From Loxodes magnus (taxonomy: Eukaryota; Ciliophora; Karyorelictea; Loxodida; Loxodidae), in contig CAMPDV010000149.1 in NCBI GenBank assembly GCA_946699065.1, positions 434,001 through 498,000 on the forward strand: a stretch of 64,000 nt of DNA, in the 5' to 3' direction. Positions 3,842 through 53,905 of this stretch are shown in pieces; position 1 is the stretch's first letter, and the number at the start of each line of letters is the position of its first letter. The notes under the pieces were generated by a model. The model made no database searches. It was given only the letters and a program-made list of their open reading frames with translations, and was not told the DNA's origin. The translations under genes and the position numbers were made by a program.

Positions 3842-5278
3842 ATGCAGAACTTAGAAAGTATGTAGAAAATGATTGAGCAAAGATGCAATGGTTGTGATAA
3901 GCCTGATGCTAAGATGAGATGTGGTAATTGCAAAACAGTTTATTACTGTTCAAGTAAATGCTAATAAGAGGATTGGTCGATTCATAAAAGAACCTGCAAG
4001 AAGCAGATAGGAAGAACCATTCATGATTTCAAAATAATTGACTTATTAGGAACTGGATAATTCTCTGAAATTCATTTAGCAAAGGATTTCGTTTAAGGAG
4101 ATTTATATGCATTAAAGATTATTAACAAATAGAGATGCAAATAACTCCATAAAGAAAAAGATGTACTTATGGAAAAGCATGTTCTGAACAAAATGAAGCA
4201 GCATGGTATTGAAGGAGTTTCGCATATTTATGAAACATGAAGAGATGATTTTCAACTTTATATTTTAATGGAATATATTGAAGGTGGAGAATTATGAAAT
4301 CTTTGTAAAGACTTCGGAATGAGAATTGATCTCGCTCTCTATTTGTTTAAAAATATGCTAGAAGTAGTTTAGTCGTTCCATTAAATTGGTATAGCTCATA
4401 GAGATATCAAAGCTGAAAACATTTTACTTAGCAAAAATAAAATGGAAGTTAAGTTTGTAGATTTTGGAACTTCTAAAGACATTTTATAACCTGAAATGGA
4501 AGGAGCGGGCTAAACTATGGGAAAGAAAGTATTTAAAGATTTTGTTGGAACTCCTTAATTTATGCCTCCAGAGTGTATAAATAACAGATATTCTGGAAAA
4601 GAATCAGATATATGATCATTAGCTTGTACTTTATATTATATGATAACTGGTAAATGACTATTTGAAGGCTTATCAGATTATTTAATTTTCAAAAAAACTC
4701 TAAGCTTAGACTATCAAATGATAGATATAGTACCTTAAGAAGTATAAGAGTTAATCAAAAGCTGCTTATAACTTAAGTATGAAGAAAGACCTACCGTAGA
4801 AAACCTGTTGGCTTCTAATTTATTCTAAAACTAGAATTATGAGATTTATCCAGTTAGTTCGCTTTAGGATATATGCATTGAAACAATTGCTAAAGACTAT
4901 AAAAAGATAAAAGAAAATAAAGAAGAGGTTTAATATTAAATAGACAGAGCCATTCATCCAAGATTATAATATGCTTTTGACTGTATTGACTCTACTTTTT
5001 AAAAATAAGATAATCTCCAAGAAAATCCATATTAAGAGCCAAATCTCAGTTAGAATTCTCAAATAGAAGAGGAAAAGAAGACTATAGAAGGTGTAGAGAA
5101 CTTGAATCTATAATAAGAATAAAGCATTAATTAGAATTTTAATTAAACTAAGTTTATTAATTAAACAATTAGTAAGAAAATAGCTATTCTAGCTATAAAC
5201 TCTCATTATACAACCTATAAGTTACATATACTGATTTGTAGGAAGTTGAAACAACTAGAAAGTAAATAAGAAGGTTGA
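3842..5278 (+). CDS. MYND zinc-finger Ser/Thr protein kinase
   Basis: A 478-residue protein starting MQNLESMQK. Residues 15-52 form a MYND zinc finger with the expected order of ligands (C15, C18, C27, C30, C36, C40, H48, C52; YYCSSKC core). A protein kinase domain follows at about 62-335: glycine loop GTGQFSEIHLAK, Lys92 in YALKII, HRDIKAENIL, DFGTSK, FVGTPQFMPPE and SDIWSLACTLYYM. The DFGTSK plus FVGTPQ activation loop resembles PDK1-type AGC kinases. TGA is Trp at sites where kinases carry Trp (DIWSLA, TGKWLF), which is the clearest proof of the code. The C-terminal 140 residues are Gln/Asn-rich. No intron is needed. The stop chosen is TGA at 5276; reading it as Trp would run into the convergent gene 85 bp away. 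The MYND-kinase pairing is unusual. Confidence 0.88.
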
Positions 5279-5363
5279 GATATTAATAATGTTCCTAATA
5301 GAAAATCTATAAAACCTAAAAGTTATTACATTAAAGTTTAAAGATTGATAATCACACTACCTT

Positions 5364-6090
5364 TCATGCTTCCTTTTCATTAATTTTAAGTAAAAGATTT
5401 ATTTTTTCATTCTTTATTGCTATATTTCTTTTATATAGCAATTTATCCAAGCTAGGAGCTAGATGATGATGAGATATTAACATACCATAATGGGCTACAA
5501 CTATTCCAATTACTATGTCAGCACAATAATGGGATTTTAATGAAAGCATAACGATTGCTTAAATAAGTGCAACGAAAAAACCAAAAAAGGCTCATTTATA
5601 TCTTTTCTCGTAAAAATGCTCTAAACCCATTATCATTGCACTCCCAACATGACCTGAAAACATAAAATCATTTGATTCTGCATAAGAAACAAGAAAAGAT
5701 GGAAATCCTGGGTAAAACCAAATATAGCCTGAAGGTCATTATAGTAAAAACATATTCTGCATTAGAACTTACCAGCAAAAATATTCTAATAGAATAAAAT
5801 ATCAAGCCTCCTATAAATGGGCGTGTACTTTTTCCCTTCATTATATAAATTATGCAAAAAGTAATTGCAAGCACATCAGCTAGGAAAGAACTTGAAATCA
5901 ATATGATTTTAACTAAAGTCAAATTCTACTACAAATACTAATTTATAGGTTAAAAAGCATCCTATAATTTATCTTAAACGCACTCAACTTGAATTCCCGT
6001 CATATAGTAAGATGAAAGTACAAATATTAAATCGCCAATAATAAAAATTGACATCATACCCATTTTAACAAGAGTTGAGATATTTTACAT
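5364..6090 (-). CDS. PAP2-superfamily membrane lipid enzyme, sphingomyelin-synthase-like
   Basis: A 236-residue protein with about six membrane segments. Lipid-phosphatase/transferase motifs are in order: NDFMFSGHVG (the SGH motif) and SHYCADIVIGIVVAHY (the His/Asp motif), spaced as in the sphingomyelin synthase and PAP2_C families, which move phosphocholine or phosphoethanolamine head groups between membrane lipids. A 16-nt intron at 5757-5772 (GTAAGT...TGCAG on the minus strand) restores the frame GYIWFYPGFPSF, a loop typical of these enzymes. The start ATG at 6090 gives MQNISTLVKMG just before the first membrane span. The stop TGA follows KINEKEA. It is convergent with the MYND kinase, 85 bp apart. 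The exact substrate cannot be told from sequence. Confidence 0.82.
5757..5772 (-). other. 16-nt spliceosomal intron
   Basis: GTAAGTTCTAATGCAG on the minus strand. Removal joins two well-formed membrane segments of the PAP2-like protein in frame. Confidence 0.8.
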
Positions 6091-7821: not shown

Positions 7822-9504
7822 TCAATTTTTGTTATTATCATTTCTCAAATTTGATACTTGCTAATCAGGCTATTCCTACTGAAATTAATTTAAAATTGGA
7901 TAAAGATTTCTATCTTATTGAAGCTTTAAATAATCGTAATATTACAATTGATCACTTTAAGGGGGAGTTGGAATATAGATAGGTGAAGATTTTCCATATA
8001 TTTAAGCTTAAGCAATTTTTATTTAATCTGATTGCATATTAAAAGAATTAAGTTCTAAATTCGTCTAGTAATCTTATTGATTGTCTTAAAGTCCTTTTTG
8101 ATCTAAAATTTATTTGATTAAATCATCCTATTTTTCAGCTTCCTTGCTTTAATTAAAAATTGTGATTTCTTTCTTTTAAGAGGATTAAACTAAATTTTGC
8201 TGATTAGAAATATTATTTAATTGCAACTATGCTTAACTTTATTTATTATTTTTTGTAAAGAATATAGTAACCAGTAGCAAGGTCATAAAACCACAAAATA
8301 CTCATAAAGAAATTGCTACCGCTGTATTTGAAGCCATTTCTTTTTTATTATCATTAGTATTTTAATTTATTTTTAAAGGTTTATTATTTTTTAGTTATAG
8401 CAAATCCCAGAAAGAGCTTGAAGCTATTTCCTGATCTTAATTGTTAGTTTAATTTTCATTTATTGGTGAAACTTCTTGGCAGTCAATTCCATCATAGATA
8501 CATGTTCTTTCACTTTTACATTCATAGTCACAGTTTCCATCATTAATCATATAGATCTTGCATCCTAAAACGCATTAATCATTTTTAGTATTAACTTAAC
8601 AATCAATGCCATCATATATACAATTTTAAACATTACAATCTAGATCACAATAGCCATCATTTATTTAAATATATTCGCAGCCTTCATTACATTAGTTTTA
8701 AGTATTTATCTCATTGCAATCGATTCCATCATAAGCACATTCTTAAACATTGCATTCTGGATTACAATAAAAATTGTTTATATCAATTAATTGGCATTTA
8801 TTTGCACAATAATCGTAATCCTAATATTTATTGCAATCGCTTCCATCATACAAACAAGAATCAACTTTACAAACTTCATCGCATCAACCATCATTAATCC
8901 ATTTATAATAGCATCCATCTGCACAAAATTCTTCACTAAGAGCAAGGCAGTCACCATTATCATAATTACATAGACCATTATTGCATTCAAAATTACATTC
9001 TTAATTTCCAATTCAGTCTTCATAACAACTATATGAACATTATTCTTCTCCCTTACCCCATATTTCAACACCACAATCTTCAGCATCTCATCCACATAGC
9101 TAATTTTTACAATTATTTTCACATATTTAGTTATTAATTTAGGAAATAAAGCAATTTTGCTTCATATTACAAAGCTTATCTTCTAAATTGAAGGTATTTT
9201 AAATTTAAGCTTCTAAAGTTGCTCAATATCCGCAGTCGTATCAGTCGAAAAGACATTAATATGTGTAGCATTTTTAATCACAAATACCATCACTTCAATT
9301 TTCTCCACAGTAATCAACACAAGCATCTGAGTCTTCAACACTCCAACATTCCATTTTGTCTCAATAGCATTCTTCTACATTACATTATTCATCACATTAT
9401 TAATTTCCAACCATATCCAAAGAACACCCAGATGCGCAATAATCGGAAGCTAGTTATTGAGAAATTAAAGTGAGAAGCACAGTATAGAGCAGAGCTTGTT
9501 TCAT
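7822..9504 (-). CDS. Type I membrane protein with Lin-12/Notch (LNR) repeats
   Basis: A 560-residue protein. It has a signal peptide (MKQALLYTVLLTLIS), then about eight cysteine-rich repeats at about 23-365. The best are NDGWCDEVCKVDSCLYDGSDC-type units with Cys spacing and Asp residues as in Lin-12/Notch/LNR calcium-binding modules (C..C, N-G-C, DG.DC ends); four carry YDGIDC or YDGSDC. One membrane span follows at about 392-417 (AISLWVFCGFMTLLLV). A 140-residue Gln/Asn-rich cytoplasmic tail holds a short proline stretch (IPTPP) and ends NNKN-TGA. No intron is needed. TGA is Trp in several repeats (YWDKMEC, FDWYDC). LNR modules in other eukaryotes regulate surface proteolysis or adhesion; a surface or receptor role here is inferred. 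Confidence 0.88.
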
Positions 9505-16982: not shown

Positions 16983-17603
16983 ATGTCAGCTCATTCTAGA
17001 GGTTTAGGAAGCAATCTAATTAACCCTTCAGGCAGTGTAGAAATACCTTTATTAGGAGAATTCCCAGCTAATATTACAAGCTAAGAGACGGATACAAGTT
17101 ACTTAACAGTCCGAAGTGGCATTAGTATCTTACCAATAAAGCCTAAGCAAAGAATTACTCTACATAAGGCTAGAGAAGGTTATAATACTTCCGGATAGTG
17201 GTATGAGAATTAAAAGCTTAAAGAATAAGAATTTGAAGAAGAAGATAAAAAGATTAAAGATGCAGTTAAAAAAGCAATGAAGCAAAATTCATTTTAAAAA
17301 GTGTTCCCTACTTTCAAAATGGACTTAAATGATCTTCCAAAGGAACAGAAACTGACTGATAGAAGCCTTCGCTATGCCTAAAGTGGACCAAATGCTTTCA
17401 AAACTCATGCTTAGAAATATAAAAACTTTGATAGAAGCTATTACTCAAGTTAAAAGCAATGGTTTCCATAATAACATCCAGAATATGTACCTGTTGATAA
17501 AACTTACAACTACAAAAAGAATTACGAAACAGAGTTTATTGAAGCTATGACAAAGATTAAAAACTTAGGCTTTGGAACTGGTTCACAAAGAAATAAAAAG
17601 TGA
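16983..17603 (+). CDS. Hypothetical basic protein, no known domain
   Basis: A 206-residue protein starting MSAHSRGLGSNLIN and ending SQRNKK-TGA. No introns, no in-frame TGA, two TGG Trp codons. The N-terminus is Ser/Gly-rich, the centre is a charged helix (FEEEDKKIKDAVKKAMK), and the C-terminal half is Tyr/Lys-rich (KTYNYKKNYETEF). No signal peptide or membrane span. The good codon mix (GAA, GGA, GCT) and the isolated clean frame make it a real gene. The Tyr/Lys/Pro-rich style recalls small axonemal proteins, but that is not evidence of function. The surface-protein gene starts 230 bp downstream on the same strand. Confidence 0.75.
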
Positions 17604-17833: not shown

Positions 17834-20800
17834 ATGCTTATACATCTAATTCTTATATCTTTTATCTGTCAAGTCCTCACTAAAACCACTGAGATTTTCG
17901 TGGGATAGCCTATTGCTGGCTAGCATATAGAGGGAGTTCAAAATTATTATAAGCTATTTGTGACCTCAACTGATCATCCTCTTGTTATCTCTGTCACGAA
18001 CTTCTTAGATTGGAGCAATCCAGATATATACGTATCAACCACTACTTAGAAGCCTGGACCTGAATCATACGAATGAGCCAGCTGATAATGGGGTTCTGAT
18101 TTTCTTACACTTGATGAGAAAGATCTAAAATTGAACTAATGGTTGTATATTGGAGTTAATTGCTATGACTTCTGCTCTTATACAATTTTAGTTAGCTAAA
18201 CAGAAAATATTATCACTCTCTATGAAGGAGAGCCGTTAGACTAATAACTAAAAGAAGGAAGTGTATAGATTTACTAGATTGAGATACCTTAAGATGATAA
18301 AATAGAATCCATTAATTTCATCATAAGAACAGAAGTTGGATAACTCAATACCAAAATTGGAATAAATTCAGTAAATGATCCTAATAGTTTTGAATATTAT
18401 GATTGGTACGGCTAATAAAGCATGTAGCTTGTTAAATCAAATGGTTGGTTCTGTATTGGATGCAAATATTTCATTTCTATAATGGCGCTCTAAGATTCAT
18501 AGTATAAAATTTAAGCTCAAACTAGTTAATCGATTGCAAAATTATAGCTAAGCAAACCATTTCACGATTAAGTAGCTGAGTAAAAATATAATGCTTATCG
18601 AGTCAGTGTTGATAATCCTTAAGGAACTCTTGAGATTTGGCTTACTGTATTTACAGGAGAACCTAATATCTACGTTTCAAGTCAAGAATATGTAAAAAAA
18701 TACGAAAATCCTTCAAAGGAATTTAACGAATTTAAGGCTGAAGGATATGGAAACTAAAGTTTAATTATAAAAGGAGATTAGAGAGAGCATACAATGGGAG
18801 GTCGGACAGACTAATATTACATAAGTATCTATGGATTTAAATAAAGTACTTTTTAAATCTTGGTATCGCTAAATGATGAAAATATTATATTACTATATCC
18901 TGGCCTACCATAATCAAAGACTCTCAATTATTAAGACGTTTAGCTATATTAGTTCAATGTCCCTTATAATCTTTCTCAAGTAATTAGGTTTACTGTGACG
19001 CAAATGAGCGGAGATACTGATCTATATATTAAAAAATGTGCAGATATGAGCCAGTGTAGCTTTTAAAAAAGAGACTATGAATCTCCAGGAAAAGAAATTT
19101 GGTATTCTTTATAATCTTAAGGATAGGATACAGTGCTGATCTAGCATTTGCCTTAAGAAAAAACTACTATCTATTTGATAGCAGTAAAGGTGAGCACTAA
19201 CTTTGGAAGCTAGTATTAAATTGTAGCCACTTATAATAATTTGAGTTAAGAACTATTAAGAGATGGAGTTGCAGTTGAAGGTAATCTGTAGAAGAATGAA
19301 TTAAGGTATTACAAGTTTTAAGTAATTAATGAATCAGCTTTATAAATAAAATTCCATCTAACACCAATTTCTGGAAATGCTGATTTATTTTCTAGCAGAA
19401 GTGAAGGTCTCCCCAATTTATAGAAGCATGAAAAATCATCTGAAAATAGTGGAATTGATCCTGATAACATAACGTATGTAAAAGGAGATGATGGAAAAAC
19501 TCTTTCTGGAATTTACTATGTAAGTGTATATGGTGCTTTATAATCTTACTATAGGCTTCTTGCCACAGTCGCATATCCTGATAGCAATAATTTAATTATC
19601 CTTCACGAGGGAAAGCCTTAGTAGGACGTATTGTAATAAGATATTGATATTTTTAGAATTTATTCATTCTAAACTTTTATGAATGAAAGTACTTAAAAGG
19701 ATATTCGAATTACCTTAACTCCTCTTTAAGGAACATTCGCTGTATATGTTGGAAACTCATAAAATTCATGAGATAGAGTATATAAGTAATTTAGATATAA
19801 TTGATGCACATGCACCTAAACTGATAATTACGAATATGTAGTTAATATTAAAACAACTTAAGATGATTATGTTTCAAATGGAACTTATTTAATACTTGTA
19901 AAAGGCAAAACGTTCTTAAATGGAAGAAGTGGTTACTCTATCTTATACTCATTTGACAGTAAGCCGATTATGCTTCAAGAAGGAGTTTCATTTTTTGATG
20001 AAGTTAGTTAAGAAAAATACAAATACTTCACTTTTCCAATTACTTACTCTTTCTAAGATTTTTATATTTCTTGTACAGCTGTTACAGGGGATCCTGATTT
20101 GTATGTCTCAGTAGGAAACGAAATTCTCAAACCTACTAAAGAAAGCTATCATTTTAAAACTGAAAGGCATGGATCAGAAGCAATAACAATCGAATGGGAT
20201 GAGAAAATGAAGGAGATATGTCCTGAGCCAAGTTATTATACAGATAATTCTGGTGAGCTTCTACAAAAAAATTGTTTAATTCATGTTGGAGTTTATGGAT
20301 ATTAAGAATCTTCCTTCTATATCGCAGTAAGATCAGTATGGGGGTATCCTGCTCTTTTAATTGAAGGAATTTAAAATTGATAAGAAATGAAAAACGATGA
20401 ATATCGGTATTATTATACAATAAATTATAATGCTGATATTACGTTTTAGTTAATTACTCTTTCAGGAGACCCTGATCTTTACATTAATTTGTATCCGGAA
20501 TATTAACATGATGATCTTGCTGATTGAAAGCGTCCAACCACTTAGGACTATGATTTTAAAAGCATAACTTCATTTTCTTCTGATAAAATTGAAATTTCAA
20601 AATCAGACATGACGAAAAAATGCGGTAATGAACACTGTGCTATTTTATTAGGAGTCCATTGCTATTAAAGTCCTTATTGCGAGTTCAATCTTCTTTATAA
20701 TGCTTAACATGAAATTTTAAATCTTCTCGAAAATGTTCAAGTAGATGGATGGGTTGGGCAAGGAAGTTGGTCTTATTATCAATTTTACAATTAGAGAGAA

Positions 20801-23149
20801 AAGGGAACTATTATCATAACATTTACACCACTATCATATTGCGATTCTTAGATTTTCGTAAAAAAAGGTTCTGCACTTCCAACTTATTAAAATTCTTATA
20901 CATATCCTTTTCCTTTGTATAATGAAAATTACTACCCTGAAGAAAATTCATTTCTTGATTATGAAGAATCTTCTGGCTATACTGAAGAAGATTGGACACG
21001 TCCTTATAAAAATATTTCAGATTTTGAATGGTCTATGTAAACATGGGCAAATGAACATTTATATATTGATAGCTCTGACTAATTCTTCAAAAAATCAAAC
21101 GAGGTATTCAAAGGAACTTATTCAATTGGTGTACTAGGCAACTACCAAGATTGCTAGTATTTTATTTAGTTTGCCACTGAGAAAAATTCACTTCAAAGAT
21201 TAATAGCAGGATAACCCTATAATGGGTATATAGAGCCTAACTAGCAATAGAACTTCTACTTTTATTTGAGTGAAAATAAAGATGTACAATTATCCTTATA
21301 GATTTTGTCGGGAAGTGCATTCATGAAAGTTAATAAACAAAATTTTGATGGAGATATGTACTCTTAAGTTCCTACCAGAACATAGTATTCCGACTTTGAT
21401 ACTCAAAGATCTGAAAGCAATAAAGTTATTCTTATTGAAAGATCCGATTACAGATGGGCTATCAATAGTTATTATCTTATAAGTGTTTTCTCTGAATCAG
21501 GGTCAGTTTCTTTTGTTCTCACTACTACTTATAATTCATCGAATGTAGTACTCTAAAACGGAGTGCCTGTTAGAAACACAGTTAATTAGAATGAATATAA
21601 ATATTATGTTTACTCTGTAACATCTTAAACTGACATTTAGATAAGCTTAACAGTTTTGAGCGGAGATCCTGATATTTATGTTGGTTTAGAACCACATGTT
21701 AGTAAATAAAGTGCTATATGGGAATCAAGTGGAGTGAATTCAAAGGAGTTCATTGTAATTTCTGCATCAGATCCTAACTTTAGAGTTGGCAGTTTTTATT
21801 TATCTGTTTATGGATATGAATATTCAGAATATTCTTTATCAGTAAGTGTGAACAGCTCTTTTATTACTTTACTCGATGGTGTTCCTATGTATTACTCTAT
21901 GAATGCTAATTAATAACTTTACTTCTAATACTGGCTTTAGGATGAAAGCTCAGTAAATGTAACTTGCTAACTTAGTCCAGTCTTATAAAGTTTTAAACCT
22001 AAAGTTTATTCCCTTTTTACAAAAGAAGATGAAGAATAAATGTTTCCTTCTTAGAAAAAAAATGTGTTTGCTCTATATGATAAGGATTATGACTCTTTGC
22101 ACGAAATTCTATTATTTTAGCTAGCTTCTAAGGCTTAAATGGGCCAAGGTAAATGGTCTTTAGGAGTTTATGCTAATTAGTAAGGGTCTTTTGTGTTGCA
22201 ATGCTCTCAATAATCAATGAATAATTTTAAGCTTTTGAGAGAAAATTAGATCACTAAAGATATAATTTACAAATCTTAGAGACATAATTATGAAATAGTA
22301 AGTAATGGGAAAACTAATATTTACTTCGAGATTGAAGTTTGCTAAGGAAACATTATTGCTAGTGCTTCTAGTAACTTTACTGACTTTAAATAGAATTCTC
22401 AATAAACAATCTATAATAAGTATAAGTACAAGCTTATGCAACAGGAACTACCAATATTTATTCAAATTTATACTCTCAAATAAAATACTTCCTATTGGAT
22501 TAGATATTCAACCTTTACCACTCTTTCATATGTAAGAGACGTCGCTGCTGGTGGAAACGGAATCATTTCATGAAATTTTAATGCTTAAACGGGTATATTG
22601 TAAACTAATTGGAAACCTTTAATTGATTTCAACGGAGATACTATTGAAGGAGTTCAATATCATGTTTTCATATAGAACTTAGAAAACTATAAGAATTTGG
22701 CTACATCATGTGCATGCTAAGCAGCTTAAGATAAAGGCTTGATTATTAAATATGATGTAACCAACTCAACACAATGGTCCTATAAATAAACTACTCAAAA
22801 GGAGATATAATATGTTATTAATATAGTTGCACACATATCAAATAAGATTCATATTAGCACAACAGAAGCTTACAATCCTACTATTATCTAAATTTACGAG
22901 CCTTAAATCTTTTAACAATATCCTAGAACTCTTATTGGAATAATAGTATTGATAGTCACCATTTTCTTAATATTAATTTTCATTTTATTAAAAAAATTGA
23001 GAAAATTCCGCGCAAGATTGAAGTACGAGATGCAGGATGTAAGAAATTTAGCAAGTGTTGTCAGCGAGGAAATTCGTGTGCCAAATGAGCAGTAGGTCAA
23101 AGAAAAATATACCCAATTAACGGTTTTTTCTGGAGAAGGATCTACTTGA
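17834..23149 (+). CDS. Giant PPC-repeat type I membrane surface protein
   Basis: A single uninterrupted frame of 1,771 residues. It has a signal peptide (MLIHLILISFICQVLT), then roughly a dozen related modules of 110-140 residues. The modules carry variants of the PPC (bacterial pre-peptidase C-terminal) signature G-D-P-D-L-Y-V: NPDIYVS near 61, EPNIYVS near 276, DTDLYIK near 393, NADLF near 515, GDPDLYVS near 752, GDPDLYIN near 878 and GDPDIYVG near 1277. YYVSVYG or SIGVLG strands close the modules, as PPC beta-sandwiches do. One membrane span lies at about 1698-1721, followed by a basic stop-transfer (KKLRKFRARLK) and a 50-residue tail ending SGEGST-TGA. PPC domains are usually secreted ligand- or substrate-binding modules. 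In a ciliate this suggests a cell-surface adhesion or coat protein (inference). Shadow ORFs at 19.4-22.5 kb are other frames of this gene. Confidence 0.88.
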
Positions 23150-35315: not shown

Positions 35316-36443
35316 TCAGTTAAACTATCCATAACTAACTTCCTATGCATTCTATTTCTCCTTTAGTTTAGCTCCTGATTGAGATTCTGAAACAGGTCTT
35401 TCTTCTTTGTTATGATAATTTTTATAATAATAGAAACCACCAGCTCCACAACCTGCTATCAATAATATTATAAAAAAGATGAGAAAACCATGGCTTCCAG
35501 ATTAGACAGCAACTCTGGCAAATAAGCTAGTTAATTCAGAAATATCGCTGAATTTTGTTAGACATCTAAGATCATTTTCAACTTCAGAGACAGCTCTGAT
35601 ATAATGGCCTAATTCTACTTGGATAAATTTTTCGCACAATTCTTCTTCATAATCTGGTTCATCTGTTTCTTCACATAAAAATTTCCAAAAATCTTCATAT
35701 ATTTCTTCATAAACTGATGTAGTGCATCTTCCTCTGTTATCAGTGGAAATAACACAATCACAATCGCCTGATGAACATTCATTATCATAGTCACACTTAT
35801 TTCAATTTTATTTTCCATCTTTCTTTTGTAATTTTGATTCTTTGAATGAAGTCCAATCGCATTCATAACATTATTTATTAGATAGTTCTCTTTCCTATCC
35901 TTCTTCCAATTTTCTTCTTTTGTCACATTTTGTTTTTTAAACGCAAAAATTGTCACACTGATTCAAATGCCAAAGATCTTTTCCTTTACATAGTTAATGT
36001 TTCAGTTGATCAGTTAGAATATGCTCTTTTATATTTTTCAATTCTCTTTCTTGTGTAGTTAAAAGCCTACTTCCTCCATTAGATCCATAATCAGAAGCTG
36101 CTACGGCCGCTGCATTTGCATCAGCAGCTTTAGCAGCAGCAACTATGTCTTACCACTAGGATTTTTTTCCTAGAACAGAGTCAATGTCATCTTAGCCTTA
36201 GTAAATGTCAGCTCCAGGCAAAGCTGGACATTTTAAAGTAGTTTCTTCGTTAAAGTATGAAATTATTGAGCATCCTTTTGAGTTTTCTACACACCATGGT
36301 CCTGCTATAATATGATCTTGATCTAAGTAATAACAATATCCTGGAACTTCTATATCATCTTTGCGTGCACAGCGCCAAATGGGGCAAGACATTGCTAGAC
36401 AAATACAAGCAAGAAACAAAAGCAGCTTTGATTGTTAAAGCAT
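35316..36443 (-). CDS. Cysteine-rich type I membrane protein, paralogue A
   Basis: A 375-residue protein in one frame. It has a signal peptide (MLQQSKLLLFLACICLAMS), a conserved N-terminal cysteine block (CPIWRC, GYCYYLD, HIIAGPWC), and an Ala-rich linker (AAAKAADANAAAVAA) near 100. A second cysteine block follows with NECSSGDCDC and RGRCTTSVYEEIY. One membrane span lies near 325-345 (GFLIFFIILLIAGCGAGGFYYY), with a short cytoplasmic tail ending SYGQFN-TGA. It aligns by eye over its full ectodomain with the next gene upstream (36638-37857), so the two are tandem duplicates. CxSGxCDC followed by GRC is a knottin-like spacing. No named family is recognised; a surface role is inferred from topology. 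Confidence 0.83.
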
Positions 36444-36637
36444 ATTTAAATAGTTATAAAGTAGCAGTGATATTTTAATTGTTAAATAAATAGACTTTTT
36501 TGAGCTCATTTTAATTAAATCAGCTTTTAAACTTACTTTTGTTATTATCTTACAATTAATGTCTTTCAATTAATGCTTTTGTTATAATATATACAAAAGA
36601 TGTTAATTTAGCCTTTTATTCAAATATTAATTATCAA

Positions 36638-37857
36638 TCAAAATGTTTCCTCATAATAAGCCAGATTATCTTCATCTAAAGGTTCCATAACGATTATGAT
36701 TACTTTATTCTTTTAAACACATTTAATCATAACATCAGCATAACAACAATAACCATAGAACACTTATTACTGCTACTAAAGTATAAGTCTACCAGACATC
36801 TTCAGCTACTTCCCGAATGATATTGTAAAATTCTTACAAATCTCCATAATAATGAAGGCATTGCAACTAATAAGAACTTTTTGAAATAGCATTAATATAA
36901 TGACTTAAGCGAACTAGAATGTAATAAGCACAAGAATTATCCCAATAATCATGATGACTCTTTCTAGTGCAAGCAAATTAAAAAAATTGCTCGTAAGGTT
37001 TATCTTCATATGAGACAGTGCATCTTCCTAAATTATCTTTCGATGGTACACAATCACAAGTACCTGATTTGCATTCTTCTTCTGATTCACATTCTTCCCA
37101 AGCATCTTTACCTTCAGGCTTATAGTTAAGATCAGTTCCCTTTTTACTTTCTTTAAACTTTGCATAATTACATTCGTAATCTTCAGTAGCAACCAAATCA
37201 CTCATTTTTTCTTTGGCAGCGTCTAACATTCTCACCTTTGGGTGACAAAAATCTTAGCAATTAAGCTATTCAGTTCAATTTTTAGGTTAACCATCTTCTT
37301 TCAAACAATATAAAATCCTAAATTTTTATGAAATGTGACTATCTAAATCCTATGCTGTAGTCTCTGTTTATAAATGTCTTCTTTATGATAGTCCTTCTTC
37401 ATAAGATGTTTGATTAGTTTCTTCAGATGAATTTTAAGGATGTTGTTTCTTCTTAAAGAGTTGTTGCTTCCTTTTAAGGAGTTTTTATTTCTTCTTAAGG
37501 AGTTGTAGCTTCTTGTGACTATTAATTTTAAGTTGCTTCTTAAAATTTCGAATTTTATTCTTAGTTTGATGGAGTTTTTAGATTTTAATTTTCTTCGTCT
37601 TCATCAATAATAGGTAGTGTTTCTTCCCAATCTTCAGGACATTCTAATGATAAACTACCAGATTAATAAAAATCAAATAATGAGCAATCTTCGTTTTTTT
37701 TCCCACAAAATGGTCCAGCATGAATTATTTATAGTTCATCATCTCCGTAGAAGCAGTAACCTTTGAAAATTTCTGTATCTTCTTAACTACATTCCCATAT
37801 GGGACATTATAAAGCAGAAGCAAGATAAACAAAGACAAAAGCAATCAATGTCTTCAT
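36638..37857 (-). CDS. Cysteine-rich type I membrane protein, paralogue B (one-base frame break)
   Basis: About 396 residues. It has a signal peptide (MKTLIAFVFVYLASA) and the same CPIWEC, GYCFYGD and IIHAGPFC block as paralogue A. A Thr/Pro/Gln/Glu repeat follows (ATTPQEE, IKTPQKE, ATTLQEE), then CKSGTCDC with LGRCTVSYEDKPYEQF, and CAYYILVRLSHYINA matching paralogue A. One span (LVAVISVLWLLLLCW) precedes a short acidic tail ending EETF-TGA. A 28-nt intron at 36676-36703 (GTAATC...CTTTAG) is needed for that tail. The frame shifts by one base inside the repeat near 37431-37445, where one unit has an extra base relative to its neighbours. This is likely an assembly indel, otherwise a recent lesion or frameshift. 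Confidence 0.78.
36676..36703 (-). other. 28-nt intron in paralogue B
   Basis: GTAATC...CTTTAG. Splicing yields the acidic tail NEDNLAYYEETF before TGA. Confidence 0.65.
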
Positions 37858-38263
37858 TTAAATAATATAATAAATATGGTATTTCTGCTCTTTTCATGCT
37901 CTACCTGTTTAAAATAATACAACTAGCTCAATTTACCTCATTGCCTAATCTATTTCCGCCTTTTTTATTTGAATCTAAAATTAGTCTTTACATTTTATCT
38001 TTCACTAAGTGAATCTAACCACTAACTTCTCTTATTTTTCTATATGTAATAAATATATCTTTCAAATAGTGCAATAGATATAATATAACTTAAAGAAGCA
38101 GAAGATAGAGTATTCCTTACTGCTAGCAATTGATTTTATTATATACTTGAAAATAGAGGGCTAGTGGTATGAGTTAATGAAGTAACTAAAGAGAATTATA
38201 AAAGATATTTAATAGAAGTTATTTAATCAATTATAATATATCATTAGACAAGGCAATCATTAA
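37858..38263. other. Intergenic stretch between divergent genes
   Basis: It separates paralogue B (-) from the small cysteine-rich gene (+), so it should hold both promoters. No motif is recognised. Confidence 0.5.
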
Positions 38264-39645: not shown

Positions 39646-42600
39646 TCAAAACATATCTAGAATTTCTTGGAACTAATTTTGATTGAATTCGTAAGATTTT
39701 ACTGTCACTTGTAATTTCCTCTTGTCTGCTTTCTGGATTTACTCCTCAAAATAAGTTAAGTCAAAAGGCCCCATTAATTTCATTTCAATTGGAGGTTTAA
39801 CTTGCTTAAGTCAAATAAGTTAGAAATTTATATTTGACTAGTTTTTGAAGAAATAGTGATTTTTAATATCTGCAGCCCCATTTTTTAAATTTCCATACCT
39901 AAGTTTTGGATTTGCTTCCAATAATTTTTCAATTAAATTTTTAGCGTTTTAGTCAAACAAGAAGCTAGGAAATTAGTAAACTCCTTTCTTAATCTTTTCG
40001 TATATTTTCATAGGGTCAGATCCATTAAAAGGAGGATAGCCACACAAAAGTTCGAACAATAAAATTCCTAGAGCTCAATAATCGACTGCTTTATCGTGAG
40101 GCGTGCCTTAAAGAACTTCTGGAGCCATATAATAAGGAGATCCACATACAGTTTAAGTTCTACTTTATTAAAAGAACTTACTTTTCATTAGGCTTAAGAA
40201 TTTTACATAGACCAAAATCAACTAATTTAATATGCCCTTTTGAATCAAGCATAACATTCTCCGGCTTTAAATCTCGATAAATAACACCCTTATTATGAAG
40301 GTATTCTAAAATAAGTAAAACTTCAGCTATATAAAAAGCAGTTATTTGTACATCAAATAACTTCTTAATCTTCAAGTGAGTAAGTAATTCCCCTCCTTAA
40401 GCAAACTCCTAAACTAAATAAATGTTTTCTTGATCCTAAAATATATCCAGAAGCCTGATAATAAAAGGAACATTATTCTTCTTTAACTTTTTCAAAATGG
40501 ATTGCTCTTGCAATACTTTATCTTCTACTTTAAGTTCTTTTATTTTATTTTTATTGTATTGCTTTAATACGATGTACTCACTTGGATCTTATATATATTA
40601 GCATAAAAGCACATTCCCAAGTTTTCCATTTTGAAGAGATTAGCCAAATTAAATCTGTGATTTCTTAAAAGTATCTTCTTAAGTAACATTATTGATTATT
40701 AGTTTATGCTGTTTTTTTTATTTTTTAGCTTTACTCGAATTTCTGTTATTGGAGTTTGAATTAGAATTTTTTTGTGAATATAGCTATTAACTTGTATCTG
40801 CCTCTTTCCTTTTAAGGTTATCTAGCTATATAGATTTCAATTCTTTTGCATTCTTCAGAAAATCTTAATTTTAGATCTATTTTTTCTCAAAAAAGTATTC
40901 AGGTTAAGACATTTATTTTTAATGGTTATTGAAATATTGCCTATTAGTTTAGGGATACTACTGTTCTTTATGCTTGTTATTGTTGTAATTCTTCTGGTTA
41001 ATTTTAACATAAAGTAAATCATTATTCACATTATTAATTGCATTGCTTTCGTCTATAAATTAATTGGAGGGACTTTATTTAAGAGGCTATTTTTTACTAG
41101 TTTAAACTTTTAATGGTGGAAGTTCATTTGAATTCTTTGAAATGGAATCTTGAAAATTCATTGATTCTGAATTTGGATTTCCGTTCTAATAAGCATTAAC
41201 ATCATAGGAAATGTTTTATTTCAAAAGGTGATTTTCATTTCCTTCTTCTGTATTTAAGTGTGATCTTCCTTTAGGACTTTTATTGTTGTTTGATTTTTCT
41301 TAATTAGCTAATTGCTTTTTATTAAACTTAGCCTATTACTAATGCTTAATAAAGCTTTAGTTATTGATTTTCTAATAATTCTAATCTTGATATGATTAAC
41401 TTAAAACTTAATTTTCCACCTTCTTCTTGAATACTCAGTTGTCATCACATTAGGTTTCAAGTAGAAGAAGATTAGTACTATTACCTAGAGCTTTAGAAAT
41501 CTATTAATAGGAGTTCTGAATAATGTCTCCTTAGATATCTACCAATTTTCTATCCAATATTTCATTTTCCTTTTAGTTTATATATTTTATTAAGTTGTTC
41601 TTGCTATTCTCCATCTCATGCATTTTCCAAAAACGACTTTACTCCAATATAATTACTCCAAATTTATTTTGAAAAGATGTTATAACTAGAGACTGAAATT
41701 ACTATACTGTATCTGTTGGACTAACATAGAAATCAAAAAATCCTTTTAAATAAATACCCTTAAAAGATTCTGAAATGCACACTTTTATGATTAGCACTAA
41801 ATGCTTAGCTAGATTAAACTCAATTTCCTCGTTCTTTAAGATTTTTCTCTAAATTATTTGATTTTATTATATAATTCCATATTTTTTGAAAAGAAGTTCT
41901 CATACAAATTCGTTCAATATAACGAAGTCAACATTTTACTGTAAATTTGGTTTTAATTGTCAATTTTTTTTGCTTATATTTTCTTCTTGGTTAGGATCAA
42001 GTAAATCAGAATTATCAATACAAGGAATATCATCCACATTTTGTGATTTAATGAAGTTATTGTATCATTGAGCATTTATTATATACACAAAGTTATAGTT
42101 TTTTAAAGGAGCTTTTTGAAACTCCTAAATCTACTCTACAAATGATTGGGATTTAATTACATTTATTTAGTGCAAAGTTAAAGGTCTCCTTACCTATGTA
42201 TCATTATCTCCATTTTAATTGCTGCTTCTTACTATTTTTTCAAGTTTAAAAGATCCCTTCAAGTTAAATTTTTTATCTGTCTATTACCTTTTTTTTAACC
42301 TATTTGATTGTAATGTTGTCTGAGATTCACCAACATTAATCTTCTTCCTATCAGATTTAGATCTATATTATTGCTTCTTAGCATGATTCTTGATAATTTC
42401 CTATTCTTTTGAGTAATTTGGATAATTCTTTAAAAAATCCTAGACATAGTCTCGTTTTATAGGTCTCATGCTCATAGACTTGAATTAATTGTTTTCAAAT
42501 TTAGAATTAATGAGTGTAATTGGGGTATCTTCTTAAAGTTGCTCTAGGAAATGTATAGAATCATTTAAAATTTCAGATTTTCTAGTAGCTTTTTACATTT

Positions 42601-48367: not shown

Positions 48368-48909
48368 ATGTCGAACTGCGATTCTTGCTATTACTTACTT
48401 AAAATTTTTGAAAGCTGTCCAAATGAAGAAAATTTATTGGGATATTCGATGGCATTTATATCTCTTTCAGTTTGACTAATTGCTTTTTATTTAGTCCTTT
48501 AATTATTACTTAAAAGAGATAACTACTAATTAAGTTTGGTAATGATTGCAGGAACTGAAGTAAGAATTAACTTTAGGCGATTGTAAATAGCTTCATCAAA
48601 AATATTATACAGTAGCCTCGTCCTGCAGATGCTTGTACTTCTAGTTATGGAATGCCAAGTAACCATGCTGCCTTTGCTACAATTACTTTAACTTGAATTC
48701 TAATATAGTAATACTAGAGATCTTTGAAGATTGATTATAAGCAAGTAATTTTAAGCCTTTTTCTTATTGCTTTGGTCTCTTACTCTCGAGTTATTCTTAA
48801 ATACCACACCTTATAGCAAACAGTAGGGGGATTTATCTTTGGATTATTTTACACAGCAATATTTTATTATTTTTGGCATAAATTCGAAGAAGTAAAAAAG
48901 GAGAACTGA
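48368..48909 (+). CDS. Dolichyldiphosphatase-like PAP2 phosphatase
   Basis: A 174-residue protein after removal of a 17-nt intron at 48560-48576 (GTAAGA...CTTTAG). The acid-phosphatase motifs are complete and in the DOLPP1/CWH8 arrangement: KNIIQQPRPADAC (K-x6-R-P), YGMPSNHAAFA (P-S-x-H) and YSRVILKYHTLQQTVGG (S-R-x5-H-x3-Q/D). About four membrane segments. DOLPP1 enzymes recycle dolichyl diphosphate at the ER for N-glycosylation; this role is inferred from motif arrangement and small size. The start MSNCDSCYYLL gives a short polar end before the first span. The stop TGA follows VKKEN. Divergent from the channel gene; the C2HC zinc-finger gene follows 144 bp later on the same strand. Confidence 0.87.
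48560..48576 (+). other. 17-nt intron in dolichyldiphosphatase-like gene
   Basis: GTAAGAATTAACTTTAG. Removal joins AGTE to AIVNSFIKN and the PAP2 motif frame. Confidence 0.85.
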
Positions 48910-49053
48910 CAATCTAACTTTATTTAATCTAATTGAACTAAATGACTTAATTAGAATCTTCTTACCCCATTCTATTGCTCTATAGCTGCTACTTTATTAA
49001 AGCTACAATAGCATGAAAGCATAGATTAGTAAGTTTAAATGGTTTAATAATAA

Positions 49054-50304
49054 ATGTTTGTATCTTTAGAAAATTAAAAAAAATCTTATAACCCTCAACT
49101 TAATAAACCCAAGTAGTTCAGAAAACCTAGAACTCTCCTTTGCTAGATGTGTGGTAGGGAATTTGGGACAGCAAGCCTCTAATTTCATCAAAAAGCTTGC
49201 ATTCAAAGATGGGAAACCGAACAAATTTAGTAGCCAACAAAATCGAAGAAGCAAGCTAAAGTAAAGGATCCTAGTACTTAATTTTAGAATGAGTTTATTT
49301 TGAAATCAGGTAAATAAAATTTTAAGAGTTGATAGCAAATAGAAGAGCATAATTAAAAAGCTTAGCAGTTCTTTGAAAATAAATCTTTATCAAGATGTCA
49401 AAATTGTCAAAGAACTTTCTTACCCGATAGACTCCCCATTCATTAGCGAGGATGCAAAAAGTCTAATCCATTTAGAAAAGTTGGAGAAAAAATTGATCTA
49501 AACAAATATAAAAGAGATTTATCCAGGACTAAAAGAACAGGCAAAATTCGTTAAACTTTCTCTTATAAAGAAGAAAAAATGCCTTTAAACAAAAAATGAA
49601 AGTCTTAGCATTAAGAGTTTATTTAGCAAATAAGATATGCCAGAAAACTTAAAAATTATGAAGATGCAGGTATCAACATTTCTTAGCTGGAACCTCCTCC
49701 TCCAGCGCAAGCAATTTATGAGGATTATGTAGAATGCCCTTATTGCTTAAGAAAATACTCTTAATAAGCAGGAGAAAGACATATTCCAAAATGTAAAAAT
49801 ATCATTAACAAACCAAAACCTCCTCCTCATTTAAGAGAGTCAGGTAATTTAGGACGTTCTTCACTAAATTGATAAAATACTTATAAAGTAGAAGAAACTT
49901 CGTAATAGAGAACTAGCTTTGGTTAAACTGAATAAAAAAAGAAAAAGGAAATGATATAGCAGTTTAATCCCTCTAATTAATTTTAACAAATTACTAGCTA
50001 ATTAAAATACAATCAGTATAAAAACCCTAGTTAACAATAAATGCCTTAATAGTCCAATTTAATAATAGATTCAAGAAAATACCATAGCACCTTATAATAG
50101 CCATAAATCTAATAATAAATGACTGGATTGTAGGGAAAAAGTATTTCAAATTATGGAAAAATGAGAATTTAAAATTTGAACATCTAAAATGAAATTAGAA
50201 ACACTTAAAACTAAAGCAGCGTGAAAAAGTGCTCAAGATGCGGATGTGATATCAGTCTTAGAGTAGGAAATTGCGTAAATTGCGCCTTGAAAAAAATGAG
50301 ATGA
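49054..50304 (+). CDS. C2HC-type zinc-finger protein (ZC2HC1/ZNF474-like)
   Basis: A 416-residue protein in one frame. Three zf-C2HC_2 fingers are visible: LCQMCGREF...FHQKAC near 34-56, RCQNCQRTFLPDRLPIHQRGC near 125-148 and ECPYCLRKY...RHIPKC near 240-262. Each has the C-x2-C-x12-H-x3-5-C pattern of the ZC2HC1/ZNF474 family, which is enriched in ciliated cells. A long Gln-rich linker follows. The C-terminal 30 residues hold two further CxxC pairs (CSRCGC, CVNCALKKMR-TGA), possibly another zinc knuckle. The start is ATG at 49054 (MFVSLENQKK); an in-frame ATG at 49039 adds five residues. No introns are needed. Confidence 0.85.
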
Positions 50305-50550: not shown

Positions 50551-52572
50551 ATGTCTAAATAATTAGATGTTGAGTTAGCGAGTAGCAGGAAAACGCATTA
50601 TCGATCATCCATAAAAACGGACATTCGAAAATTAACATCAGTGCTATGCAATAAAATAAAATATCCTGTTCATTTAATTTGAAATAACATAAACGCTACT
50701 GCTTTGATAAAAAGCAATGTACTTAATTGTTTCTAGAAAAGCGAAGAATTTCAAATTCTACGTAATATTTCTGGATATGCTGCTCCTGGATAAATGGTTG
50801 CAATAATGGGAGGCTCGGGTGCTGGTAAAACTACTTTACTTAATATTTTAAGCAATAGACAATCTTTTTTAAAAGGCATGAAAACTTCGGGAGAAGTTTC
50901 GGTTAATGGAATTAATATCTAATAAGTTGGATTTTCAACTTTTGCTGGGTATTTAATGCAATTTGATGTTCTATAGTCTTCATTAACTGCAAGAGAATAA
51001 ATAGAAATAGTAGCTAAATTTCGCTTATATCATTTAAGTTAAAAAGAGCGTTAAGCTATAGTTTTAACAATGATTCTAGACATGGGAATATCTCATTGCT
51101 GTGACGAAATAGTTGGAGATCATCTAAATAAAAAAATATCAGGTGGAGAAAAAAAGAGAGTTTCTTTAGGTATAGAGCTGCTAGTTAATCCTTCATTATT
51201 ATTTCTTGATGAACCAACTACCGGTCTTGATAGTTAGAACTCTATTAAAATTTTAAAGAAAGTAAGAAAAGCAGCAGATATGGGGCATACAATACTAGCA
51301 ACTATACATTAGCCAAGTAGCTAAATTTTTAAAATTTTTGATCATTTAATTTTGATGGGTAAAGGATAAATTTTATACTAGGTAGGCTTTTATAATTATA
51401 GGGATCTTCTGAATAAGCTTACTAACACTTTTAGTAAATTGGTTTTGAAGTTCCTGAGTTTACTAATCCAGCTGAATTTTATATTAATATTTTGAGTAAA
51501 GAATGACATGAAGAGAAACTAAGGATAAAAAACTTTCATGTAACAGATTAGGAAATTAAAATTTAATCGGAAAAAGAATATCAAATAGTTTATGACAAAA
51601 TCTATTAAGTTTATACTCCAGTGTCATGTCTGATTTCAAACTTCGGCGAACTCGTTGATCCAAATCAAGAAAAACGACAGAGGATGTCATTTTGTTAAGC
51701 ATTTTGATATTTATTTATATGAACTTCAAGAGCGAGATTTCGCATGTCTCTATTCTGACCGTGACTATTAGGCTAAGCTATTCAAGCATCTATTTATGCT
51801 ATAACTTATTGGCAACTAAGCAATGATTATGAATCTATATAAGATAGAGTTGGATGCTTATTCCTATTATCAATGTTTCCTTTAACTGGAGGAATGTTTT
51901 TAGTATGCCTTGATTGTAAGAATTTTTTTTAATTTATAATTATAGAACTGGCTGATAGAAGAAACTTTTAAAGATCATAAATGTCTCATCAGTTCTCCAT
52001 TCAAGTCTATTTTTTTTCAAGATTAGCTCATTATCTATCGTTTGGTGTATTCTTATGCTTCTTTTTGACAGTACTTATGTATTTTGCTATAGGTTTCAAC
52101 ACAACATCTGCAGAAAGATTTTTCAATTTCGTTGCAATTATGTTTATGGGATTTTTAAATGCAACTGGAAAGTCTATGATATCAACTGGAATGTTTGATA
52201 CTTTAGAGGCAGTATTTGCCTTTTCACCAATACTCTTTGTGCCTTTTTTTATGTTCTCAGGCCTTTTGATAAATAATGATGATTATCCTTCTTATCTTAA
52301 TTGGATGAAATACATTTCAGACACTCAGTTCATCTTTAGCGCTTTTGTTCTTGTAATTTTTAATACAGAATGAATTTGAAGATCTAGATATGGACTGTGA
52401 TGAAGAATCTCTTTCTTAATTTCAGTATTACATTTGCATAGATCCACCAAAAATTCTCAACATAGAATTTTCTTTAGGTGAAAATATTTTAATAGGCTAT
52501 TCTCTTGGAATTATCTGCCTTATTATTGCCTTCTTACTTTACATGAAAAACTTCACTATCTTTAGAAAATGA
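50551..52572 (+). CDS. ABCG-family half ABC transporter
   Basis: A 651-residue protein after splicing, the normal size for an ABCG half-transporter (ATPase first, then six spans). ATPase motifs: Walker A GGSGAGKTTLLN, Q-loop YLMQFDVL, signature ISGGEKKRVS, Walker B LLFLDEPTTGLD and H-loop TIHQPSS. The membrane domain begins at QAFWYLFIWTSRARFRM and contains MFPLTGGMF, FMFSGLLIN and VLNEFEDLD. Introns lie at 51382-51401 (20 nt), 51916-51945 (30 nt) and 52353-52368 (16 nt). The last exactly restores the conserved N-E-F motif. TGA is Trp repeatedly (FWPWLL) and is the stop after NFTIFRK. ABCG proteins export lipids, sterols or xenobiotics as dimers; the substrate is unknown. Confidence 0.92.
51382..51401 (+). 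other. 20-nt intron in ABCG gene
   Basis: GTAGGC...ATTATAG. Removal gives ILYQGSSEQAYQHF, the usual ABCG sequence after the ATPase. Confidence 0.88.
51916..51945 (+). other. 30-nt intron in ABCG gene
   Basis: GTAAGA...ATTATAG. In phase (multiple of three), so it is supported by splice-site form and A/T content rather than by a frame change. Confidence 0.6.
52353..52368 (+). other. 16-nt intron in ABCG gene
   Basis: GTAATTTTTAATACAG. Removal restores AFVLNEFEDLD, a conserved ABCG element. Confidence 0.88.
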
Positions 52573-52666
52573 TACAGACAATTCAATTCTTTAATTGCTA
52601 TTTTCTTTATTTATTCTATTTAAATTAGTCTTTTTATATTTTAAAGCTTAACATTAAATAGGAAAA

Positions 52667-53905
52667 ATGATTCTAGAAATCATCAAGTATCAATGAAAAG
52701 ACTTTAAGCATACTTTCAATCCTAATTTTGAAGAAGGAGATGTACCTAAAGCTTAAAAAATCAATTTGGCTTATTGCTTTATTTGCTTTATTTTAGCTTT
52801 AAAAGTTATATGTGTAATTTCGAGAGCCATTGGTGTAGGATATATCTGCGACGCTGAGATCCATCATTGTGACCTGAATCATCTTTATACAATGTTTATC
52901 TAAGCTCCAGTTACATGGATGGTTGAAATGTATTTGGTAAGATAGATATTTAAGCTACCTAAAAATTAGCCAGCTCCTAAATATCACAGATTTTTCAGGT
53001 TTATTTGCGAATTTGTTGTAGCTTATAGATAATTTGGATGGGGTGCTCATTATGTTGCTAACTTTTTGGAAATGTATGCAACTAACATCCAGGCAAATAG
53101 TGGAAAATTATATGATGCTATATTTTTCTGAGACGAAATTTTTACACATTAGTAAATAATATTTTCTGGCTTCATATATCAAATGCTTTTCACAATTCAC
53201 GATAGAAAAGATAGAGTCGTTTCTCCTAAGTTAGCCATTTTAACAGTAGCTGGATAATCAGCTTCTTAAGGGGCGAGTTTAATAGAAGGGCATTCTTGGT
53301 TTTATATATTCATAATGCCAATATCATTTATAACAGTAGGATTATACAGAGCTTATAAGTACAAATATAATGTATAGCAAGCTTGGAATGACTTTTTCTT
53401 TAGGCATACTTTTTGTGTAGGTTTAATGTTTCCTTTGATTTACATCTTGTTTTTTATATTCTACGGAGGCCTAGTTGAACCTTCTAGAATGCATGGTGAA
53501 AAATACAAAAATAAAGTTCCATTTGTGTTGTTTATAGTATTCTGTGTAGTTCTTTTCATTATGATCTTATTAATAACGGATTGTCTTATTAAAAAATACT
53601 TTAAGAAGAGAAAAATAGTTGAAGTGAATATGGAATAATTGGAAGAATAAGAATAAAACTAAGTAGAAATTTAGTAGCAGTTATAGGAAAATTACGAATC
53701 TGTATAGACTAAACTCTAGTTATGGTATGTTGTTTCTATTAAGTTGGCAGCAAAGTTCAATAAACAAAATTAAATAAAACTTGACAATATTAAATATAAT
53801 AAAGAAGAAAATAGACTGTAGAAGTTTAGTTAACTTAATGAAACTACTATAAGGGAAGTATTAACAAATGAAGTAATGAATAAATTAAAGGATTAGTTAG
53901 AGTGA
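52667..53905 (+). CDS. Multi-pass membrane protein of unknown family
   Basis: A 412-residue protein in one frame. About six membrane spans (FICFILALKVICVIS, HSWFYIFIMPISFITVGLY, FCVGLMFPLIYILFFIFYGG, VPFVLFIVFCVVLFIMILLI and others). It has conserved-looking aromatic and His residues (FGWGAHYVANF, FFWDEIFTHQQ) and a long Gln/Lys-rich cytoplasmic tail ending KDQLE-TGA. TGA is Trp in YQWKDF and FFWDE. Start ATG at 52667 (MILEIIKYQW) lies 94 bp after the ABCG stop on the same strand. No family is recognised. A tetraspan-like or TLC-like fold would be guesses; proximity to the transporter does not imply shared function in a eukaryote. Confidence 0.82.

Follow-up and report, generated by a model that had tools for sequence, protein, structure and literature searches.

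The window, the whole 64-kb stretch of DNA analysed here, holds no open reading frame of at least 150 amino acids under table 11, and it raises the question of how TAA, TAG and TGA are read inside its genes and which of them ends a gene. Once all 64 codons were allowed to be sense, a self-trained coding model yielded 20 gene models in the window, with Pfam domains named in many of them and a coding signal that runs on through in-frame stop codons. The codon model was trained on the window itself, and the bounds of the smaller genes are approximate. The 15 models scoring at least 30 carry 96 TGA (a tally that includes some true stops), 76 TGG, 409 TAA and 172 TAG; the other five of the 20 score below 30 and were excluded from the 64-codon stop test. 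The genes are as follows.

10..2623, plus strand: gene truncated by the edge of the window, unmatched in Pfam; exons 10-2225 and from 2245, intron of 19 nt; probable stop TGA 2621-2623.
3842..5113, plus strand: MYND-finger PDK1-like protein kinase; in-frame TGA at 4238, 4295, 4613 (DIWSLA) and 4655.
7822..9450, minus strand: Notch/LNR-repeat protein whose model has 8 TGA in frame; probably ends at TGA 7822-7824.
16983..17603, plus strand: short gene, unmatched in Pfam; probably ends at TGA 17601-17603.
17867..23149, plus strand: long protein, matched weakly as UPF0669/PPC-like; TAA/TAG in frame 115 times and TGA 7 times; probably ends at TGA 23147-23149.
23286..26792, minus strand: Kelch-repeat protein whose model holds 25 TGA and 10 TGG; probably ends at TGA 23286-23288.
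27852..29233, minus strand: IQ and MORN-repeat protein; exons 28606-29233, 28551-28586 and 27915-28531, introns of 19 and 19 nt; stop TGA 27942-27944 or 27852-27854.
35316..36410, minus strand: cysteine-rich protein (CPIW family, named by eye); probable stop TGA 35316-35318.
36633..38040, minus strand: second CPIW-type gene; models 36633-37439 and 37441-38040, probably one gene over two frames.
39646..42589, minus strand: DUSP-domain AGC kinase; exons 40182-42589 and 39652-40159, intron of 22 nt; probable stop TGA 39646-39648.
48466..48909, plus strand: PAP2-like gene, approximate start; stop probably one of TGA 48907, 48934 and 48943.
48950..50304, plus strand: C2HC zinc-finger gene, approximate start, sharing its reading frame with the PAP2-like gene; probable stop TGA 50302-50304.
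50566..52572, plus strand: ABCG half transporter; exons 50566-51381, 51402-52352 and from 52369, introns of 20 and 16 nt; TGA 51720 faces W of ABCG2; probable stop TGA 52570-52572.
52661..53905, plus strand: hydrophobic protein without convincing Pfam match, probably a membrane protein; probable stop TGA 53903-53905, where the interval of the sequence-only reading also ends.
59955..61076, minus strand: WD40 protein; probable stop TGA 59955-59957.

The answer is almost certainly the karyorelict nuclear code, table 27, in which UAA and UAG would be read as Gln, and UGA would specify Trp within a gene and be the main signal that ends it. On this reading the DNA is nuclear and comes from a karyorelict ciliate, and genome size and gene anatomy point to the macronuclear assembly of Loxodes magnus as the most likely source; the source assembly comprises 705,730,643 bases, and the published L. 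magnus MAC assembly 706 Mbp (PMC11441545).

The residues facing the three codons were tallied in PDB homologues of the window genes, with X placed at each TAA, TAG and TGA, over 12 hand-chosen alignment blocks from 35 chains. Of 37 residues aligned with TGA, 16 are W, and 13 of 29 sites have at least one W; the corresponding shares of W are 12/25 for TGG and 18/2050 for all other codons. The sequence-only reading had placed TGA at invariant Trp sites, and this is borne out in two kinases, where TGA 4613 of the DIWSLA motif faces W and TGA 40077 of VDYWALG faces W of PKA. It fails at the ABCG motif FWPWLL, where TGA 51756 and 51762 are aligned with N and Q of ABCG2, and is half right at the WD40 blade ends, where TGA 60032 faces W but TGA 60161 lies opposite K, next to a gap. 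Of the four TGA in the kinase at 3842, one is opposite W, and the other three face F, L and P.

Columns of kinases from the same genome carry the codon assignments further. From 5592 candidates, 136 kinase places were scored, and the first 68 of those listed were used. Their invariant Trp column holds TGG in 38 cases, TGA in 22, Y in 4 and F in 4, and three Trp columns hold 49 of the 66 in-frame TGA of the set; the log-odds for TGA are 135 for W and 16 for the next residue, F. For TAA (328 codons) Q scores +150, K, the next residue, 63 and E -19, and for TAG (155 codons) the corresponding values are +94, 39 and -11, which gives Q a lead over K of 87 and 56 nats, respectively. The claim that TAA and TAG fall at Gln-like positions is thus upheld by these columns, and it is because of them that both codons are assigned to Gln, since the homologues of the window genes, taken by themselves, leave Gln, Glu and Lys unseparated for TAA (E fits best by BLOSUM, at 0.39, with Q at 0.11). 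Run as controls, CAA, GAA and TGG came out best as E, Q and Y, not as their own residues, because each codon was left out of its column, and the method is therefore validated only by its agreement with the Trp columns and by the literature. All three standard stops are sense codons here, with UAA and UAG as Gln and UGA as Trp internally.

Which codon ends genes was addressed in the window by scoring all 64 codons as gene enders over 15 genes. Only TGA was clearly positive (+9.9 nats), with the next-best codon at +0.7, TAG at -4.2 and TAA at -5.8. The statement that all the genes end at TGA, never at TAA or TAG, is not confirmed as it stands. TGA was the best of the three stops in 12 of 14 re-trained window models, but in model 35313-36410 (minus strand) TAG is slightly ahead (3.95 against 2.89 for TGA). 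Nor is a TGA end clear in the kinase at 3842, whose coding signal dies away around TAATAAGAATAA at 5111 (TAA TAA GAA TAA) with no TGA close by; the next one in frame lies at 5276-5278. A cruder stop test on the 20 models ranked TGA third by ratio (2.2), after TCC (3.0) and CGG (2.8), both rare. When 28 genes outside the window were taken alone (L082 having been dropped from this set as a tandem repeat), the stop signal was weak, with TGA at +0.4 nats and all other codons negative, TAG reaching -30.1. In a mixture fit for a second terminator over 42 genes, TAA and TAG both received a weight of 0, a result of low power for TAA because about 6% of non-coding codons are TAA; no codon gained more than the 3.1 nats of TAC, which was taken as noise. 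GC content is 0.31 before the inferred stops and 0.17 after them.

Conserved genes from other parts of this genome were also examined for the codon at their ends. For actins and histones the expected ends were the generally known ones or those on which paralogues agree, and a solved chain served to place the end of a single Arp1 gene; for L157, L158 and three calcium-dependent kinases the end was taken as the first in-frame TGA past the domain, and L148 has no paralogue for comparison. The actin set comprises 23 genes read of 96 actin-family places, and the histone set 29 of 31 places, leaving out C243:303439 and C699:138238, whose scores equal those of places that were read. Among 55 conserved-gene ends outside the window, 50 carry TGA, four TAA and none TAG, and one is unresolved. 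UGA had been called the sole stop; its dominance stands, but "sole" may be slightly too strong because 4 of the 54 resolved ends carry TAA.

These four ends belong to two Arp1-like genes, at C10:669867 and C193:129581 on the minus strand, and two H3 variants, at C327:222034 and C34:504675. In one Arp1-like gene the PDB Arp1 chain ends exactly at the TAA; reading on in frame, the two genes reach a TGA at the 23rd and the 40th codon beyond their TAA. Both H3 variants carry TAA in the column where a paralogue carries TGA, and one of them shows TAATAATAA and then no in-frame TGA across the 113 codons read past the first TAA. One of the four genes has a TGA five codons downstream. Past the four TAA ends GC is 0.20 and the coding log-odds -0.16 per codon, which is UTR-like; past 45 TGA stops the values are 0.23 and -0.09. 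No GT-AG intron of 15-30 nt leading to a TGA within 30 codons was found in the stretches scanned for the two Arp1-like genes and the window kinase, and the intron escape for the H3 variant on C327 was checked by eye only.

The codon meanings and the dominance of TGA at gene ends, both observed here, match the published L. magnus code, and the earlier naming of the karyorelictid code (table 27) is supported. The code itself is already known, because it has been published for L. magnus as table 27 with UGA as the only stop (PMC11441545), and Loxodes transcriptomes likewise gave UGA as stop and UAR as Gln (PMC6935857). What may be added is UAA as a minor stop in Loxodes. We see the chances as evenly balanced that L. 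magnus is not a UGA-only terminator and that UAA, although it very often encodes Gln, also terminates a minority of genes, where it falls close to the end of the transcript, in a code between tables 27 and 28 with UGA as main stop and UAG as no stop. The Arp1-like genes with TAA at the expected end, the H3 variants and the UTR-like sequence beyond all four argue for this, and the kinase at 3842 in the window may be one more example. In L. magnus, moreover, UAA and UGA, and not UAG, are reported as depleted over about 20 codons before stops (PMC11441545), and a minor stop role of UAA would offer a reason for its part in this depletion; in the last 20 codons before 24 inferred stops, a small set, TAA (13/480 against 107/1836 upstream) and TAG (16/480 against 29/1836, not depleted) agree with that report, whereas TGA (4/480 against 10/1836) does not. 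Against a role for UAA stand its zero weight in the mixture fit, the TGA five codons beyond one of the four ends, the fact that only two independent families are involved and that the candidate TAA ends are known from genomic DNA alone, and the naming of UGA as the Loxodes stop in both published accounts. No claim of a UAA stop in Loxodes occurs in the literature searched, which was covered in excerpts and left out the Seah 2022 karyorelict code paper.

The remaining explanations are far less credible. The Condylostoma code is NCBI table 28, and the Blastocrithidia code NCBI table 31. Table 28, under which each of the three codons would be both sense and stop, fits the fact that all three are sense in this genome, but it is very improbable given TAG at 0 of 54 resolved ends and its negative scores inside and outside the window, introns of 16-25 nt where heterotrichs have 15-16 nt (PMC11441545), and an assembly size that agrees with Loxodes. 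Even less can be said for a code of the Blastocrithidia type, with UAR as Glu, UGA as Trp and UAA as stop: the window PDB tally slightly favours E for TAA, but the kinase columns put Q far above E for both TAA and TAG, and TGA ends 50 of the 54 resolved genes. Pseudogenes, faulty assembly or sequencing errors in genes of the standard code deserve equally little credence, as nothing beyond the presence of in-frame stops speaks for them, while TGA falls in Trp columns and TAA/TAG in Gln-like columns over 68 kinases, the coding signal carries on through the stops, and there are 43 full-length actin matches of near-equal score, actins and histones alike carrying in-frame TAA/TAG.

In the karyorelict code no codon is reserved for stop, and termination must therefore be read from position. 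In the scheme that serves as background here, UAR would be read by a putative cognate tRNA-Gln, and the release factor would beat the tRNA only near the mRNA 3' end, where poly(A)-binding protein probably aids it; a role of this protein in termination has been proposed (PMC4967479). A tRNA-Trp(CCA) whose anticodon stem has 4 bp has been reported for Loxodes (PMC13092985). A tRNA search of the genome listed 63 places, given without anticodons, from 42,786 candidates, and Rfam and ARAGORN gave no matches over the window.

A table 27-type code is a known and striking exception. If UAA is a minor stop as well, UGA-only gene models would be wrong for part of the Loxodes genome, UAA and UGA would each mean both an amino acid and stop, and only UAG would be fully captured; Loxodes would then stand halfway between the Condylostoma and karyorelict codes, with the loss of each stop observable separately.

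Thirteen introns were predicted, of 16, 16, 17, 17, 19 (four cases), 20, 20, 22, 23 and 25 nt, under a model that imposed GT-AG and 15-28 nt; those of L. magnus have a mode of 17 and a mean of 19.3 nt, and its 3' UTRs a GC content of 18.6% (PMC11441545). Searches for relatives by exact pattern (viral and prokaryote contigs) and by protein (viral contigs) gave no match, and a phage tblastn with the window kinase returned 25 records, each below 60% identity.

Among known codes, the Condylostoma magnum code shares with the window the use of all stops as sense and a termination read from context (PMC4967479), but no TAG stop occurs in the 54 resolved ends here and the introns are longer than 15-16 nt. 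All three stops are also sense, with UGA as Trp, in Blastocrithidia, which differs in reading UAR as Glu and in using UAA as its stop (PMC12153298). UAR as Gln and UGA as Trp, as here, have been proposed for Amoebophrya sp. ex Karlodinium veneficum, a dinoflagellate parasite, for which the paper leaves the terminating codon open (PMC12005148). The closest systems are the table 27 karyorelicts, L. magnus (PMC11441545), Loxodes spp. (PMC6935857) and Parduczia sp. (PMC4967479), with UAR as Gln, UGA as both Trp and stop, short introns, AT-rich 3' ends and all 64 codons sense. The window shows no clear difference from them, whereas the same genome has TAA at 4 of 54 resolved ends, and in-frame UGA is commoner here (66 of 17,410 kinase codons) than the 0.12% reported for Parduczia (PMC4967479).

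The window was located in the Loxodes magnus genome (G000; 705,730,643 bases in 7843 contigs) at G000:C149:434001-498000. It is AT-rich, with a GC content of 0.16-0.31 in 2-kb steps, and under the standard code no open frame of 150 codons occurred across its 64 kb. In the published description, the macronuclear assembly of L. magnus is given as 706 Mbp, and karyorelicts including Loxodes are assigned table 27, with UGA as the sole stop that is also read as Trp when sufficiently distant from the poly-A tail (PMC11441545). The use of stop codons as sense codons, claimed in the sequence-only reading, is real, and the code is already known for this species; the points on which that reading fails are minor.

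A codon model self-trained on the window, with all 64 codons permitted and GT-AG introns of 15-28 nt added afterwards, yielded 20 gene models with predicted introns of 19, 19, 19, 22, 20 and 16 nt. A Pfam search of these segments, translated with table 27, gave no match for seven of the 20, and segment 52511-54061 matched below the curated cut-off only. The products identified were:

3842..5113, plus strand: PDK1-like MYND kinase (Pfam kinase and MYND domains; PDK1 from PDB matches)
LNR protein (Pfam)
23316-26792: Kelch protein (Pfam)
MORN proteins (Pfam)
DUSP-AGC kinase (Pfam)
PAP2 protein (Pfam)
C2HC zinc fingers (Pfam)
50566..52572, plus strand: ABC transporter (Pfam; ABCG from PDB matches)
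10TM transporter, partial (Pfam)
WD40 protein (Pfam)

The PAP2 and C2HC domains share one frame (48466-50304) and would be fused if the intervening TGA is Trp, an arrangement that is a trap for automatic gene calling under table 27. The PHM7_cyt match of the 10TM transporter (46220-47665) adjoins minus-strand coding segments in other frames, probably reflecting introns that the codon model did not resolve. Adjacent minus-strand genes at 35313-38040 look, by eye, like one cysteine-rich family (CPIW...), and a 42-base tandem repeat lies within this region (37432-37512). TGA:TGG usage varies by gene, from 7:21 in a long protein (17867-23146) to 25:10 in the Kelch protein (heterogeneity p = 0.009, chi-square, 14 window genes, TGA counts including possible stops).

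The meaning of the codons was examined by masking TAA, TAG and TGA as X and aligning the window proteins to PDB chains. In 12 alignment blocks, hand-chosen among the 35 chains shown, W stood opposite TGA in 16 of 37 aligned residues, opposite the control TGG in 12 of 25, and opposite the remaining codons in 18 of 2050. Other residues facing TGA were F (5), Y (3), L, C and K (2 each), and P, S, N, Q, R, V and G (once each). TGA had been placed at invariant Trp sites in the ABCG motif FWPWLL and in WD40 blades; the FWPWLL codons have no Trp opposite, and one WD40 TGA faces Lys next to a gap. BLOSUM fits from the window favored Q for TAG; for TAA, E was best (0.39), followed by K (0.13) and Q (0.11), so that Gln was not singled out. 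Since the window alone was not decisive on this point, an alignment of 68 kinase domains of this genome was made with stops masked. Their invariant Trp column held TGG 38 times, TGA 22 times, and Tyr and Phe four times each, and 49 of 66 kinase TGA codons fell in three Trp columns. Column log-odds were W 135 for TGA (F next, 16), Q 150 for TAA (K next, 63) and Q 94 for TAG (K next, 39), with Glu negative for both UAR codons. CAA, GAA and TGG did not recover their own residue and are poor controls for this method, because each is excluded from its own columns and synonyms are rare or absent.

For gene ends, each of the 64 codons was scored as a marker of where the coding signal stops, with stops weighted zero. 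TGA led in 15 window genes (+9.9 nats; next-best codon +0.7, TAA -5.8, TAG -4.2). With 200 kb from other contigs added, 42 genes gave TGA +15.2, TAA -13.8 and TAG -30.1. The 28 non-window genes alone gave a weak signal (TGA +0.4, every other codon negative), and a cruder earlier version with 20 models ranked TGA third by ratio, below two rare codons. GC fell from 0.31 in the final 60 nt to 0.17 past 24 inferred stops. TGA is the dominant terminal codon overall, but the claim that all these genes end there fails to the extent that some window genes lack a clear terminal TGA. In the kinase at 3842, the coding signal fades around TAA TAA GAA TAA (5111-5122), the following in-frame TGA lies at 5276, no short intron leading to a TGA within 30 codons was found in the stretch scanned, and end scores were 0.17 for TGA, 2.5 for TAA and 2.0 for TAG.

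Genes with a known terminal residue are a stronger test of the stop than composition. Expected ends were those generally known for these proteins or were taken from paralogue agreement, except for one Arp1 end, which was checked by alignment with solved chains. The first TGA past the domain served as the end in two actin-family genes (L157 and L158) and in three calcium-dependent kinases. Among 55 ends, 50 were TGA, four TAA, none TAG and one unresolved. The actin family (23 ends read of 96 places) gave 20 TGA, several from near-identical copies and therefore not independent, two TAA and the unresolved case; histones (29 of 31 places read) gave 27 TGA and two TAA; and the kinases ended at TGA in 3/3.

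The four TAA at expected ends belong to two Arp1-like genes (...HSKTF and ...HYKTC before TAA) and two H3 variants (...GEKHLTDM before TAA). In the HSKTF gene, the one aligned to PDB Arp1 (E 8e-126), the last residue of the chain matches the codon before TAA; in the HSKTF and HYKTC genes the next in-frame TGA is the 23rd and 40th codon past the TAA, respectively. A third H3 paralogue ends in ...QLTDV with TGA in the same alignment column. The H3 variant on contig C327 carries TAATAATAA, with no in-frame TGA among the 113 codons read past the first TAA, and the other has TGA five codons past TAA. Sequence past the four TAA resembles that past 45 TGA ends in GC (0.20 vs 0.23, the latter raised because several actin copies carry a GC-rich 3' flank) and in coding log-odds per codon (-0.16 vs -0.09). 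Given these ends and their UTR-like flanks, the chances that UAA still serves as a minor stop in L. magnus would therefore be about evenly balanced, judging from sequence; the composition mixture, however, assigns TAA zero weight, and the TAA ends come from two families.

During elongation, UAR would be read by cognate tRNA-Gln, as in ciliates. Poly(A) proximity and PABP have been proposed to trigger termination near the transcript end (PMC4967479), and nearness of poly(A)/PABP may likewise set off the stop in Loxodes.

The genome contains 43 full-length actin matches with nearly equal scores (450-460 bits), many clustered on few contigs (C266, C711, C524, C707, C437, C1162, C1812 and others of G000), representing either an amplified family or tandem arrays that the assembly did not resolve; for five of the 43, the 3' end was read. 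Regular arrays of tRNA matches, identical in score, lie at C103:669738-672972, C158:171420-182004 and C78:681122-688206, with spacings of about 527, 1752 and 1753 bases, respectively.
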